Of a stretch of DNA of 64,000 nt, positions 7,745 to 42,335 are shown piece after piece (positions within the stretch are counted from its first letter, which is position 1; each line of letters opens with the position of its first letter). The notes beneath the pieces were generated by a model. The model did not search any database, was not told the origin of the DNA, and was given only the letters and a program-made list of their open reading frames with translations. The DNA lies in the NCBI RefSeq assembly GCF_003852495.1, contig NZ_QAJI01000004.1:4124-68123 (forward strand), given 5' to 3'. The translations under genes were made by a program, and so were the position numbers. This DNA comes from Taibaiella sp. KBW10 (GTDB lineage Bacteria > Bacteroidota > Bacteroidia > Chitinophagales > Chitinophagaceae).

Positions 7745-8776
7745 TTAGTCCTCGCTTTCGGGATTAAGCGTTTTCTTTTCGCCCGGAAACATTACGGAAA
7801 CCAATACCGAAATAATTAAAACACCGCCTACAATAGCCAGCGAAACCGGCGAGGAAATGTGAAACCAGGGAGCTACCAGCATCTTAATCCCGATAAAGGT
7901 CAGGATAATCGATAGGCCATAAGATAGCTTACTGAACATATGGATAAAATTGGATAGTAAAAAGTATAAAGACCTTAAACCCAAAATCGCAAAAATGTTA
8001 GAGGTATACAAAATGAACGGATCTTTTGAAATCGCAAAAATCGCGGGAATAGAATCTACCGCAAACAGTACATCGGTAAACTCGATTACGGCCACCACCA
8101 CCAATAAAGGCGTGGCGATTTTAATGCCATTTTGTATCGTGAAAAATTTGTCTCCGTCATATTTATCGCTAACCTTATAGAGTTTTTTAACCAGTTTTGC
8201 GCCTACAGAATCACTGAAATCCTGATCATCTTTATGATCGTTTCCGCCCCAGGATTTGATACCGGCAATAGCCAGGAAGATCCCGAATAAAGTCAGGACA
8301 ATATTTATTTTTACGGCCTGCCCAAAGATTTCCATTTCAGGAAGGAACGTAAGGTTAATGATGCCGACACCGGCAAAAATGAAGATCGCTCTAAAGATAA
8401 GGGCACCAATAATACCCCAGAAGAGTACTTTATGGTGTAGGAATTTAGGCACTTTGAAATAGCCAAAGACCAGGATGAATACGAACAAGTTATCGACAGA
8501 CAATGCTTTCTCTATCCAATAAGCGGCCTGAAACTCTGTAAATTTATCCAATGCCACTTTATGTCCGCCGGCATCATGGTTAAATACCCAGTAAACAACA
8601 CCGGAAAAAATCATGGAGAGTGATATCCAGACAACACTCCAGATCGTGGCTTCTTTTGAAGAAACCTCATGGCTTTTTTTGTTAAAAATTCCTAAGTCCA
8701 GAAGTAGCATAATTACTACTACGATAGCGAATCCCCATACAAGTCCGGGATGTCGTGCTAAAATGTTTGTTTCCAT
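7745..8776 (-). CDS. TerC/Alx family integral membrane protein
   Basis: 343 residues with about nine hydrophobic segments. Both hallmark acidic motifs of the TerC/Alx family are present: WIEKALSVDNLFVFILVF near residue 90 and VIEFTDVLFAVDSIPAIFAI near residue 230. Characterised relatives (E. coli Alx, B. subtilis TerC homologues) export manganese or help metal-dependent exoenzymes fold; the tellurite name is historical. The gene is monocistronic, with its own terminator downstream. I looked for the upstream alx-type pH-responsive leader and saw no room for it: only 42 nt separate this start from the previous leftward stop. Confidence 0.9.
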   Translation of the reverse strand: METNILARHPGLVWGFAIVVVIMLLLDLGIFNKKSHEVSSKEATIWSVVWISLSMIFSGVVYWVFNHDAGGHKVALDKFTEFQAAYWIEKALSVDNLFVFILVFGYFKVPKFLHHKVLFWGIIGALIFRAIFIFAGVGIINLTFLPEMEIFGQAVKINIVLTLFGIFLAIAGIKSWGGNDHKDDQDFSDSVGAKLVKKLYKVSDKYDGDKFFTIQNGIKIATPLLVVVAVIEFTDVLFAVDSIPAIFAISKDPFILYTSNIFAILGLRSLYFLLSNFIHMFSKLSYGLSIILTFIGIKMLVAPWFHISSPVSLAIVGGVLIISVLVSVMFPGEKKTLNPESED

Positions 8777-8818
8777 TATATTGTGTTGTTACGAATTGAT
8801 GATATCCTGTCTGTTATG

Positions 8819-10540
8819 CTAAAATGCCGTATAGTCTTTCCGGTTAAGGTTCAGCCGGATGCCTGAGTAGAAGTAAGTGGATTTTTGTTCGGGTAAAATA
8901 TTATGCTCGAGCGCATAGGAACGGTGTGTACCACCGAGGTCAAAATTAAGATTAGGTGCAATTTCGTAACTGATGTTCAGGCTTAGGGAAAGACCAGTTG
9001 CTTTAGCACCATGAATCATTTTAACTCCGAAGATGCCCGGTATGTTCTGGCTGTATGATTTGGATAGATCGTTCCCGAAATTAAGGTTACCGGTATCGAC
9101 ACCTTGCTGATAATACAAGGCCTTGGCATTGATCTGTAAACGGGCCGTAGGCCGATAATTGGCTATAAATACCAGTTCCCGGAAACCGGCGCCCAGAGGA
9201 TGTGCCAGGGGCAGATTGTTATTCGTAAAATTGGATGCGATATAGCCACTATTATCCTTTTCCAGGTGTTGGAAGGTATAAGGGCGTACCACATTGCCCT
9301 CAACTTGCAGGTCAAGATTGTCGACCGTAAAAGCATCATAATATTTCAGACCCAGTTGAGCACCCCATTTATTATGCATATAGCCATTGTTGGCAAAAAA
9401 TTCTTTTGCTGTAAACTCATTGAGTAGAAACTGTCCATATATTCCCAGTCCTCTTACCGGTATCGCCTTGGCATTGATACCTAAGGCTACCTTATCGGGG
9501 CTGCCGAGGCTACGCTCAATGGCACGATAAAAGATCAACGGATTCATATATCCGGCTTCAAAATGATTGGTTCTGTTAAAGACGACCATTTCGTATAAAC
9601 CGATATTGAGCCATCGGGTCACATTTGTACTTAAGTGATGGGCAGTTGCATATTTATAGCCGCCACTATAATTCGTCAGGTTATTGCCCGGAATATGATG
9701 ATCGGCGCTGAGCCGCATATAGAGATTGTCGTATTGGAATTTCCATACTTTGGTACTCAGTTTTGCATACCATACCGGTCCGGAAAAGTCGGATAGGATC
9801 AGGCTTCTGTAGCCATCTCCGATTTTTTGATAATCGTAACCCACGCTGGCACTAATATAATTGCGCAAGACACTGGCATTTATGGCGCCTGTTGGTAAGA
9901 TATAATCGTACGATCCGTTTGCCTGCTGCTTATAGTCATGCACACCAATCAGGGTATTACGGTTTTGATTGTAAGCGGCATAATAACTTACCGGCTCTTC
10001 ATGCACATACCTGAAATTAAGGTCTGCACCGATAATATCTTTATATTTTACACGGATGCGTGCGCCGGCGGCATACTGATTCCGGAATACCTTTTCCTGT
10101 GGTGTCGTTTCATAAATACCCTGATAACCCAGTACAGGGTTTGCACTCAGGAAAAAATTACGACTGTTATGATATATAAAATCTGTTTTCTTTTTATAAA
10201 AAGTCCCCATGACCGGGTTTCTGGAATCCAGTGCCCCATCTCCATCTTCCGATGCCCATTCCCCGTTTTGGCTCAGGTAACGGCTCATCAAAGCATTATC
10301 CACATTACTCCATCCTCTTTTTAAATTGATGCGTTGGGCATCTTTAATATACAAGGCTACATCTTTTCTGGATAAGGCTTGTGTGCTCAGGTGCAGATAA
10401 TCGGAGAAGCTGCCCGACAGTGTTTCGATACGGTTTAAAAAACCATAGGTGCCGTCGTTGATGTCCACATGGGCACTTTGCGCATACGTAGAAACGCCGC
10501 TGGCAAGGCCGAGGCAAGTCAAAAGTAAAGTGTTTCTCAA
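8819..10540 (-). CDS. Outer-membrane beta-barrel, RemB / capsule-assembly Wzi-like
   Basis: 573 residues starting at a TTG codon; the codon before it is a stop, and the product then begins with a good signal peptide (residues 1-20, LLLTCLGLASGVSTYAQ). The rest is a beta-barrel-like alternation of aromatic and polar residues, with GYMNPLIFYRAIERSLGSPDK and LRLSADHHIPGNN resembling the Wzi/RemB family of Bacteroidota. Family members are outer-membrane proteins linked to capsule anchoring or, for Flavobacterium RemB, gliding. Assignment is from remembered family features, not a search. It lies 42 nt upstream of the TerC gene on the same strand. Confidence 0.75.
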   Translation of the reverse strand: MRNTLLLTCLGLASGVSTYAQSAHVDINDGTYGFLNRIETLSGSFSDYLHLSTQALSRKDVALYIKDAQRINLKRGWSNVDNALMSRYLSQNGEWASEDGDGALDSRNPVMGTFYKKKTDFIYHNSRNFFLSANPVLGYQGIYETTPQEKVFRNQYAAGARIRVKYKDIIGADLNFRYVHEEPVSYYAAYNQNRNTLIGVHDYKQQANGSYDYILPTGAINASVLRNYISASVGYDYQKIGDGYRSLILSDFSGPVWYAKLSTKVWKFQYDNLYMRLSADHHIPGNNLTNYSGGYKYATAHHLSTNVTRWLNIGLYEMVVFNRTNHFEAGYMNPLIFYRAIERSLGSPDKVALGINAKAIPVRGLGIYGQFLLNEFTAKEFFANNGYMHNKWGAQLGLKYYDAFTVDNLDLQVEGNVVRPYTFQHLEKDNSGYIASNFTNNNLPLAHPLGAGFRELVFIANYRPTARLQINAKALYYQQGVDTGNLNFGNDLSKSYSQNIPGIFGVKMIHGAKATGLSLSLNISYEIAPNLNFDLGGTHRSYALEHNILPEQKSTYFYSGIRLNLNRKDYTAF

Positions 10541-20462: not shown

Positions 20463-20990
20463 AGCTTCTGTCCTTTTGTTCTCACAAAAAGATGAACAAA
20501 AGGGTTGCCGATATGCGGATCGTCATATTATTTTAATTGAGTATCCTCTATTTGGAAATAAAGAGCTAATTATTCTTTTGGTTTCTATTTATCGCTATGC
20601 TACCTTTTGCCTTGATGCAAAAGGTACCGCCAAAAAATCAAGGCTGTATAAATCCATGGCTAAAAATCAATGTGTCGGTCGGTCGTAAACCAAACTCGCT
20701 GCGCTCAAACAGTGGTTTACGCCTTTATCGACCGAGCCAATGATTTTCTTAACGCCGGATTTATAAGGCCAGTCCTAAACGATCTTTACAGAACGGATCG
20801 CTTATTGTTTTCATCACAGCGATAGCAATTTTGTAAGTGTCGTTGCGATTTTTGAGTAATGGATACTCCCTCTAATACTCAAAAATCAATGCACGGAACG
20901 CAACAAAATTGTGGTGCGGAGCAATCGCCTTGATGAAAACAGGCATTTTTGGTCCTTTTGTTGCCACAAAAGGACGAACAAAAGGGCTTG
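20463..20990 (+). repeat. Interspersed intergenic repeat, copy A (structured)
   Basis: This fills most of a 640-nt gap with no believable gene. Its core (about 20590-20845) is repeated in inverted orientation at 41999-42335, with roughly a dozen differences in about 190 bp by eye. It is packed with inverted repeats: a 10-bp hairpin TACCTTTTGC/GCAAAAGGTA (20601-20626), a long imperfect palindrome from 20642 to 20770 (outer GGCTGTATAAATCC / GGATTTATAAGGCC, inner CGGTCG / CGACCG and GTAAAC / GTTTAC around CTCGCTGCGCTC), and matching CCTTTTGTT...AACAAAAGG hairpins at both ends (20472-20503 and 20954-20985). A 75-nt segment near 20850-20920 is absent from copy B. The architecture recalls REP/BIME-type elements; no RAYT transposase is in the window. 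Confidence 0.8.
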
Positions 20991-21018
20991 TCTACTGCAG
21001 ATAACCACATTGCTTTAT

Positions 21019-25760: not shown

Positions 25761-25831
25761 TTTACAGCCTGAAAAAGAATTTATACTATCGTTGAAAATG
25801 AAAAGAAATCGGGAGGGAAATGAATACTGTA

Positions 25832-25937
25832 TTATCTATCCGTATACGGTAGAATGTAGCACCTTCTTTATTTTCGATCGAAAATAAAGGGTTGCTAAGG
25901 CTTCAGCGGGTCTAATCCCTCTGCCTTTCTTGATAAC
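25832..25937 (-). ncRNA. SAM-I (S-box) riboswitch
   Basis: On the minus strand the conserved core is easy to read: TTATCAAGAAAGGCAGAGGG, then ATTAGACCCGCTGAAGCC, TTAGCAACC, and AAGGTGCTACATTC. P1 is TTATC (25936-25932) with GATAA (25836-25832). P3 is a perfect long hairpin, CTTTATTTTCGA / TCGAAAATAAAG (25866-25889), and P4 is CCGTATACGG. The kink-turn and pseudoknot-loop sequences match the S-box family. It sits 135 nt upstream of metH with a terminator in between, so it should act by transcription termination when SAM binds. Confidence 0.95.
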
Positions 25938-25959
25938 ACTTTCAAACAAAGAACTGCTG

Positions 25960-41998: not shown

Positions 41999-42335
41999 GA
42001 ACAAAGGTAGCGACCTTTGTTCATCAAGGCGATTGCTCTGCATCGCAACGCCAATACAAAATTGCTATTGCTGTGATTAAAACAATAAGCGATCTGTACC
42101 GAACAGATCCTTAGGACCGGCCTTATAAATCCGGCATTAAGAAAAATCACTGGCTCGGTCGATAAAGGCGCAAACAATTGTCTGAGCGCAGCGAGTTTGG
42201 TTTGCGACCGACCGACACATTGATTTTTAGCCAGGGATTTATAAAGCCTTGATTTTTTGGCGGTACCTTTTGCATCAAGGCAAAAGGTAGCAATAGCTAT
42301 AAGTGACAATCGCTAAAAATAGAAACCAAAAGAAT
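41999..42335 (-). repeat. Interspersed intergenic repeat, copy B (structured)
   Basis: This is the same element as at 20463-20990, in opposite orientation. It keeps the TACCTTTTGC/GCAAAAGGTA hairpin (about 42262-42288), the palindromic core around CTCGCTGCGCTC (about 42117-42250) and the CGGTCG/CGACCG arms. One inner stem differs from copy A by a paired change: GTAAAC/GTTTAC in A is GCAAAC/GTTTGC here (42170-42175 with 42200-42205). It lacks the ~75-nt insertion of copy A and ends in a perfect GAACAAAGGT/ACCTTTGTTC hairpin (41999-42022). It fills the space after sbcC. Confidence 0.8.

Follow-up and report, generated by a model that had tools for sequence, protein, structure and literature searches.

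Two folding repeats in an Edaphocola genome as probable decaying members of an IS1595-type MITE family that carries a widespread structured module

The window, i.e. the whole 64,000-nt stretch of DNA analysed, contains two copies of a folding repeat, designated here copies A and B, situated in opposite orientation and differing at an apparently compensated base pair: T20686-A20719 is indeed T-A in copy A and C-G in copy B. A sequence-only reading took this pair to argue that a folded form is selected, and proposed either a mobile REP/BIME-like element moved by a RAYT or a terminator or 3′ UTR RNA element. The locus thus raises the question of what these copies are and of whether their fold is maintained by selection. 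The window belongs to a 3.6 Mb genome (G000, 99.84% complete) from a congener of Edaphocola flava, a genus of the family Chitinophagaceae, Bacteroidota (NCBI taxonomy).

Both the relationship of the two copies and their folding were confirmed: they share 91% identity across a 247-nt core, and are far more stably folded than dinucleotide shuffles, whether as RNA (z = -6.6 for copy A and -5.8 for copy B) or as DNA (z = -6.1 and -5.5). Their limits, originally set at 20463-20990 and 41999-42335, had to be corrected, and the sequence immediately preceding copy A is a separate fragment. The features of the two copies are the following:

20470..20520, plus strand: separate right-end fragment ahead of copy A (right-end match G000:C7:24593-24643)
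about 20536..21009, plus strand: copy A, whole MITE, homologous to two-ended copies, with left end ATTGAGTATCC... and a degraded right end
20536..20560, plus strand: left terminal inverted repeat of copy A, ATTGAGTATCCTCTATTTGGAAATA
20605..20644, plus strand: hairpin domain of copy A, TTTTGCCTTGATGCAAAA...ATCAAGGC, whose CTTGAT loop is the complement of an ATCAAG further downstream (pseudoknot-like)
20642..20770, plus strand: long foldback of copy A, with internal motif CTAAAA / TTTTCTTAACG and apical AACTCG..CTCAAACA
20807..20940, plus strand: second long imperfect foldback of copy A, TTTTCATC...GATGAAAA, read by eye from the sequence
20951..21009, plus strand: right end of copy A, with hairpin GTCCTTTTG..CAAAAGGAC and degraded right terminal repeat
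42371 to about 42000, minus strand: copy B, with left end, hairpin domain and foldback, right end lost, from sequence matches

In both copies only the left end is well preserved, the right end is degraded and no 8-bp duplication is visible. The list of open reading frames of the window contains none of at least 100 aa lying wholly within copy A or B. Elsewhere in the window, a SAM riboswitch aptamer (RF00162, 81 bits) was found at 25829-25939 on the minus strand.

The two copies are not an isolated pair. The window genome contains 46 matches to the 247-nt core and, after merging core, left-end and right-end matches, 52 copies and fragments; same-strand matches up to 200 nt apart were joined for this count, copy A and the fragment preceding it counting as one, and 20 weak rows (2, 7 and 11 per match list), mostly opposite-strand self-matches, were omitted. 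Additionally, a 324-nt consensus had 40 matches in E. flava, all of them spanning most of its length, once one opposite-strand self-match was excluded. These results support the proposal of a dispersed, mobile folding element, in the form of a large family.

We then tabulated pairing in 17 aligned copies from the window genome and 30 from E. flava, using 46 pairs from the central foldback of copy A. At the position of T20686-A20719, the window-genome copies showed C-G (9), C-A (6), T-A (1) and A-A (1), and those from E. flava C-C (14), C-G (10), C-A (5) and C-T (1). The 5′ base is thus C in 45 of the 47 copies (15 of 17 and 30 of 30, respectively), and the 3′ base is variable. The T-A pair occurs in copy A alone, and no other change in the 46 pairs of the 47 copies alters both bases to give a standard pair. 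There is virtually no covariation in the foldback within the genus; A-C changes outnumber new G-T changes there, although three of the pairs are usually G-T. The table rules out the single compensatory pair as a sign of selection, since its 3′ base varies opposite a near-constant C, and cautions against inferring selection from one such pair in two copies.

The ends of the elements indicate how they spread. Oriented alignments gave a left-end consensus A(C/T)TGAGTATCCGC and a right end, inverted with respect to the left one, of GCGGATAGTCAGT or GCGGATTTCA(G/T)(T/A); these terminal inverted repeats, summarised as A(C/T)TGA-TATCCGC, are present in the window genome, E. flava, E. aurantiacus, Taibaiella lutea and two Saprospiraceae MAGs. 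Among 58 two-ended copies, kept distinct by their flanks, 8-bp direct repeats were perfect in 35 and matched at 7 or more of the 8 positions in 42, a perfect duplication being missing in 23. When left and right flanks were re-paired randomly (2000 trials, small shifts being permitted in observed and shuffled pairs), the corresponding values were a mean of 0.9 with a maximum of 6, and a mean of 4.5 with a maximum of 11. A looser count, in which some copies were counted twice via overlapping loci, gave perfect duplications in 38 of 63 copies (shuffle maximum 5), distributed among the window genome (4 of 7), E. flava (18 of 33), E. aurantiacus (12 of 18), T. lutea (2 of 3) and the Saprospiraceae MAGs (2 of 2); these perfect duplications are 93% A/T. 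Element length ranges from 127 to 484 bp, being 472-484 bp in 39 of the 58 two-ended copies. Inverted ends together with 8-bp duplications are the signature of a DDE transposase and not of a Y1 enzyme.

At the locus of copy B, E. flava carries a copy (L136) directly after the stop codon of the same gene, with duplication TAAAATAA. Copy B is situated some 340 bp beyond that insertion point, so the two are separate insertions. A search for clean empty sites found none; where E. flava has the insertion L130, a gene is present in the window. The pattern for the terminal repeats matched 0 stretches in viral contigs, and copy A used as a query gave no match in phages.

Insertion sequences of the IS1595 family generate 8-bp target duplications. 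A search for the end sequences with one mismatch allowed matched 4 of 396 genomes of the order, three from Edaphocola and one (G130) from another family of the same order. In G130, identical 22-nt ends in inverted orientation span 2464 bp encoding a 314-aa protein with domains PF12762 DDE_Tnp_IS1595 (1.5e-21) and zinc ribbon PF12760, and the element, as read from the sequence, is flanked on both sides by a ATATCTTA duplication. E. aurantiacus has a 319-aa transposase with 49-50% identity to the G130 protein; near its gene lies ACTGAGTCTCCGCTTTTAGGAAACAAAG, whose tip precedes the start codon by 160 bp and which differs at one base from the left end of an E. flava MITE, and a second end was not found within about 7.5 kb. 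In E. aurantiacus (L273, about 8539-9040), a MITE abuts the transposase-side end of the IS1595-type gene region, with no clear duplication of its own.

No close partner transposase was found in the window genome, where the best IS1595 matches show 20-28% identity, which suggests that its MITE copies are probably fossils. Its four IS1595 loci were rejected as the source of a partner because they contain no matching end except for one site with three mismatches in L270, pointing away from the gene, that we judged to be due to chance. A partner in the same genome is not required of an inactive MITE. Two pairs of ends from E. flava were also discarded: the 3.3-kb pair L148, examined as a possible insertion sequence, proved to be a lone end plus a short element, and the 4.7-kb pair L213 encloses a distant IS1595 transposase and has mismatched flanks, so that it is not a composite transposon.

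With the mobility of the MITE well supported, copies A and B are very probably decaying members of an Edaphocola family of non-autonomous MITEs, moved by an IS1595-type DDE enzyme with an 8-bp staggered cut and having acquired their folded interior. Following this model, the transposase would act on both inverted terminal repeats, the unit would be inserted between genes in A/T-rich DNA via the staggered cut, and the interior would be a separate module picked up by the MITE. We infer that an IS1595-type enzyme most likely moved the copies of the window genome and has since been lost there.

The interior and these ends also occur independently of each other. Edaphocola-type ends enclose other interiors in T. 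lutea and the two Saprospiraceae MAGs and, reciprocally, all 74 module copies inspected in other genera lacked an Edaphocola-type end nearby; ends with other interiors, and the interior without these ends, indicate that the interior is separable from the MITE. In genome G026, module copies L108 and L116, two of the three copies read, are enclosed by another inverted repeat, TATACCAATTG, which suggests that small transposons of at least two types have taken up the module. A further G026 locus, L097, holds the module in degraded form only. The T. lutea elements (L193, L205 and L217) are 265-266 bp long and combine the shared terminal repeats with interior palindromes CCCGTAGGGAT / accccatcggggt, which constitute another type of repeat. 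Those from the Saprospiraceae MAGs (L223, 222 bp, and L190, 133 bp) have the shared ends, other palindromic interiors and a perfect 8-bp duplication each.

In a multi-genus alignment of the module, agreement begins at the foot of the hairpin and ends just past TAGGCC, TAGGTC, TAAGTC, TATGTC or similar. A pattern for the hairpin domain occurred in 50 of 296 Bacteroidota genomes and 23 of 139 sampled genera, and its reversed control had no match among the matches listed. The covariation sought in more copies, absent within the genus, does appear at this larger scale, pairing being kept across genera despite sequence change. Among 48 distinct sequences, the pair closing the hairpin is T-A in 23, C-G in 21, G-C in 2 and mismatched in 2, and a pair between the loop and a downstream base (n-n′) is T-A in 28, A-T in 10, C-G in 7 and mismatched in 3. 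For these two and for three outer stem pairs, the observed pairing was reached in 0 of 5000 shuffles each. Counts were made on columns left free by the search pattern, which fixes five further loop pairs, and the sequences are related, so the counts are not independent. An extension of the helix, between the first loop base and the base after TCAAG, was paired in 21 of 48 sequences, with a shuffle mean of 19.8. The loop pair interleaves with the hairpin, and the resulting structure would be a pseudoknot or a pair of alternative hairpins.

Matching changes could also arise if template switching in replication kept the arms of a palindrome alike, in which case they would need no selection. This would fit copy A, which has T-A where others have C and a variable 3′ base, a context in which one change can restore the pair unselected. 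However, correction between the arms of that hairpin would by itself leave the n-n′ pair unexplained, as this pair is not part of the palindrome, and we regard template switching as an unlikely explanation.

Downstream of the hairpin, the arms of the 33 elements that contain the CTAAAA / TTTTYTTAACG motif paired on average better with each other than with arms exchanged from other loci, both in the outer (14.8 versus 9.5) and in the inner (18.1 versus 12.3) stem, with mean fractions of foreign partners beaten of 0.82 and 0.78, respectively, some of the elements pairing no better than swaps. A looser pattern for this motif was found in 36 of 80 elements versus 0.06% of shuffles, and a pattern for the apical motif, strict enough to overlook the window's own copy, in 16 of the 80. 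In other Bacteroidota loci (L308, L309, L310 and L311), many copies of the module form clusters with a spacing of about 270-460 bp, near neighbours being co-oriented.

No Rfam family matched the module at or above its gathering cut-off, and the six matches from a permissive search were all below gathering scores, so that an Rfam identity was discarded. The module gave no match in plasmids, and no literature on it was found, judging from titles and the opening lines of abstracts; as far as these searches show, it is undescribed. It is conceivable, albeit rather doubtful, that the interior represents a class of mobile element of its own, extending across the Bacteroidota. Such an element would consist of a hairpin covarying from loop to downstream sequence, acting as a single-stranded DNA pseudoknot or two-state switch, and of the CTAAAA/TTTTYTTAACG foldback, with discrete ends, one at the foot of the hairpin and the other close to the TAGGCC-like motif, and would be moved by some enzyme and hitch-hike in unrelated MITEs.

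Gene context, examined for 45 of the 52 copies of the window genome and 30 of the 41 matches of E. flava with genes taken as the longest open reading frame calls and no annotation used, bears on a role as RNA. Gaps between convergent genes hold 33 of the 75 copies (16 of 45 in the window genome and 17 of 30 in E. flava) and those between divergent genes 8 of 75, compared with 25% and 35%, respectively, of the intergenic bases of the window. This preference for gene 3′ ends, the covariation across genera and the antisense bias of co-directional copies in the window genome (16 to 7 sense) could be accounted for by a transcribed terminator, 3′ UTR stabiliser or regulatory RNA, retained for its fold. 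Nevertheless, the 3′-end bias is equally expected from the loss of promoter-disrupting insertions, and co-directional copies have no fixed sense overall (14 sense and 20 antisense), those of E. flava being 7 sense and 4 antisense. Copy A contains no terminator-like site, which discards it as an intrinsic terminator, and no Rfam match links the element to a described RNA. Moreover, the five covarying pairs contain 1 G-T and 5 A-C in 240 cells; RNA would tolerate G-U, and this scarcity of G-T weakly favours pairing as DNA. The placement of the copies thus fits insertion into A/T-rich gaps plus loss of the promoter-disrupting ones and lends little support to a strand-specific RNA, a reading that we consider improbable.

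The proposal that the element is REP/BIME-like and moves as single-stranded DNA through a RAYT (a Y1 HuH transposase) draws on the strong hairpins of copies A and B and on the frequency of Y1 genes, present in 43 of 60 genomes of the family, including one gene in E. flava, and in 15 of the 16 tested among the 50 genomes holding the hairpin. It is also in line with two papers: Bacteroidetes genes of TnpA_REP subclass 2.6 are described as flanked by 'atypical secondary structures' that are copied elsewhere in the genome (PMC6006769), and CGTC repeats are reported in Bacteroidetes (PMC3733652). However, the window genome has no Y1_Tnp match, in a search that matched 5 of 14 control genomes, and among the matches listed, two sets of 30 Y1 loci each had no core hairpin nearby. 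Among 20 weaker, RAYT-sized loci it was near one, about 3.3 kb off in G007, and the E. flava Y1 locus, one of these 20, lacked it. To our knowledge, Y1 enzymes produce no target duplication, and the Edaphocola element has 8-bp duplications. Taken together, the lack of a Y1 match in the window genome, the duplications and Y1 loci nearly free of the hairpin led us to reject a RAYT origin of the Edaphocola element, which is disfavoured to the point of being very improbable.

The preferred reading, an IS1595-type MITE with an acquired module, replaces the puzzle of the covariation by two subjects that can be tested: a MITE family whose class of transposase is identified, and a structured module. 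If the module is mobile or bound by a protein, it would be a common, unrecognised part of the intergenic DNA of Bacteroidota.

Among known systems, REP/BIME elements and their RAYTs (TnpA_REP subclass 2.6), as described in PMC6006769, resemble the Edaphocola element in being dispersed intergenic hairpins of Bacteroidota, but the latter is much longer, has 8-bp duplications and is linked to no Y1 gene in the inspected loci. A MITE with a minisatellite from P. gingivalis (PMC4596501) is, by its description, similarly a Bacteroidota MITE with repeated interior sequence, although from another host. The closest parallel is with MITEs of the IS1595 (ISXO2-like) group, which share terminal inverted repeats, an A/T-rich 8-bp duplication, the absence of genes, a size below 500 bp, dozens of copies and a partner transposase with PF12762 and PF12760. 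The Edaphocola family differs from them in that the window genome yielded no close partner transposase, in that its type of ends encloses other palindromic interiors elsewhere, and in carrying a folded module found across the phylum; it is, then, a family new in itself but belonging to a known type of MITE, and it carries a widespread structured module.
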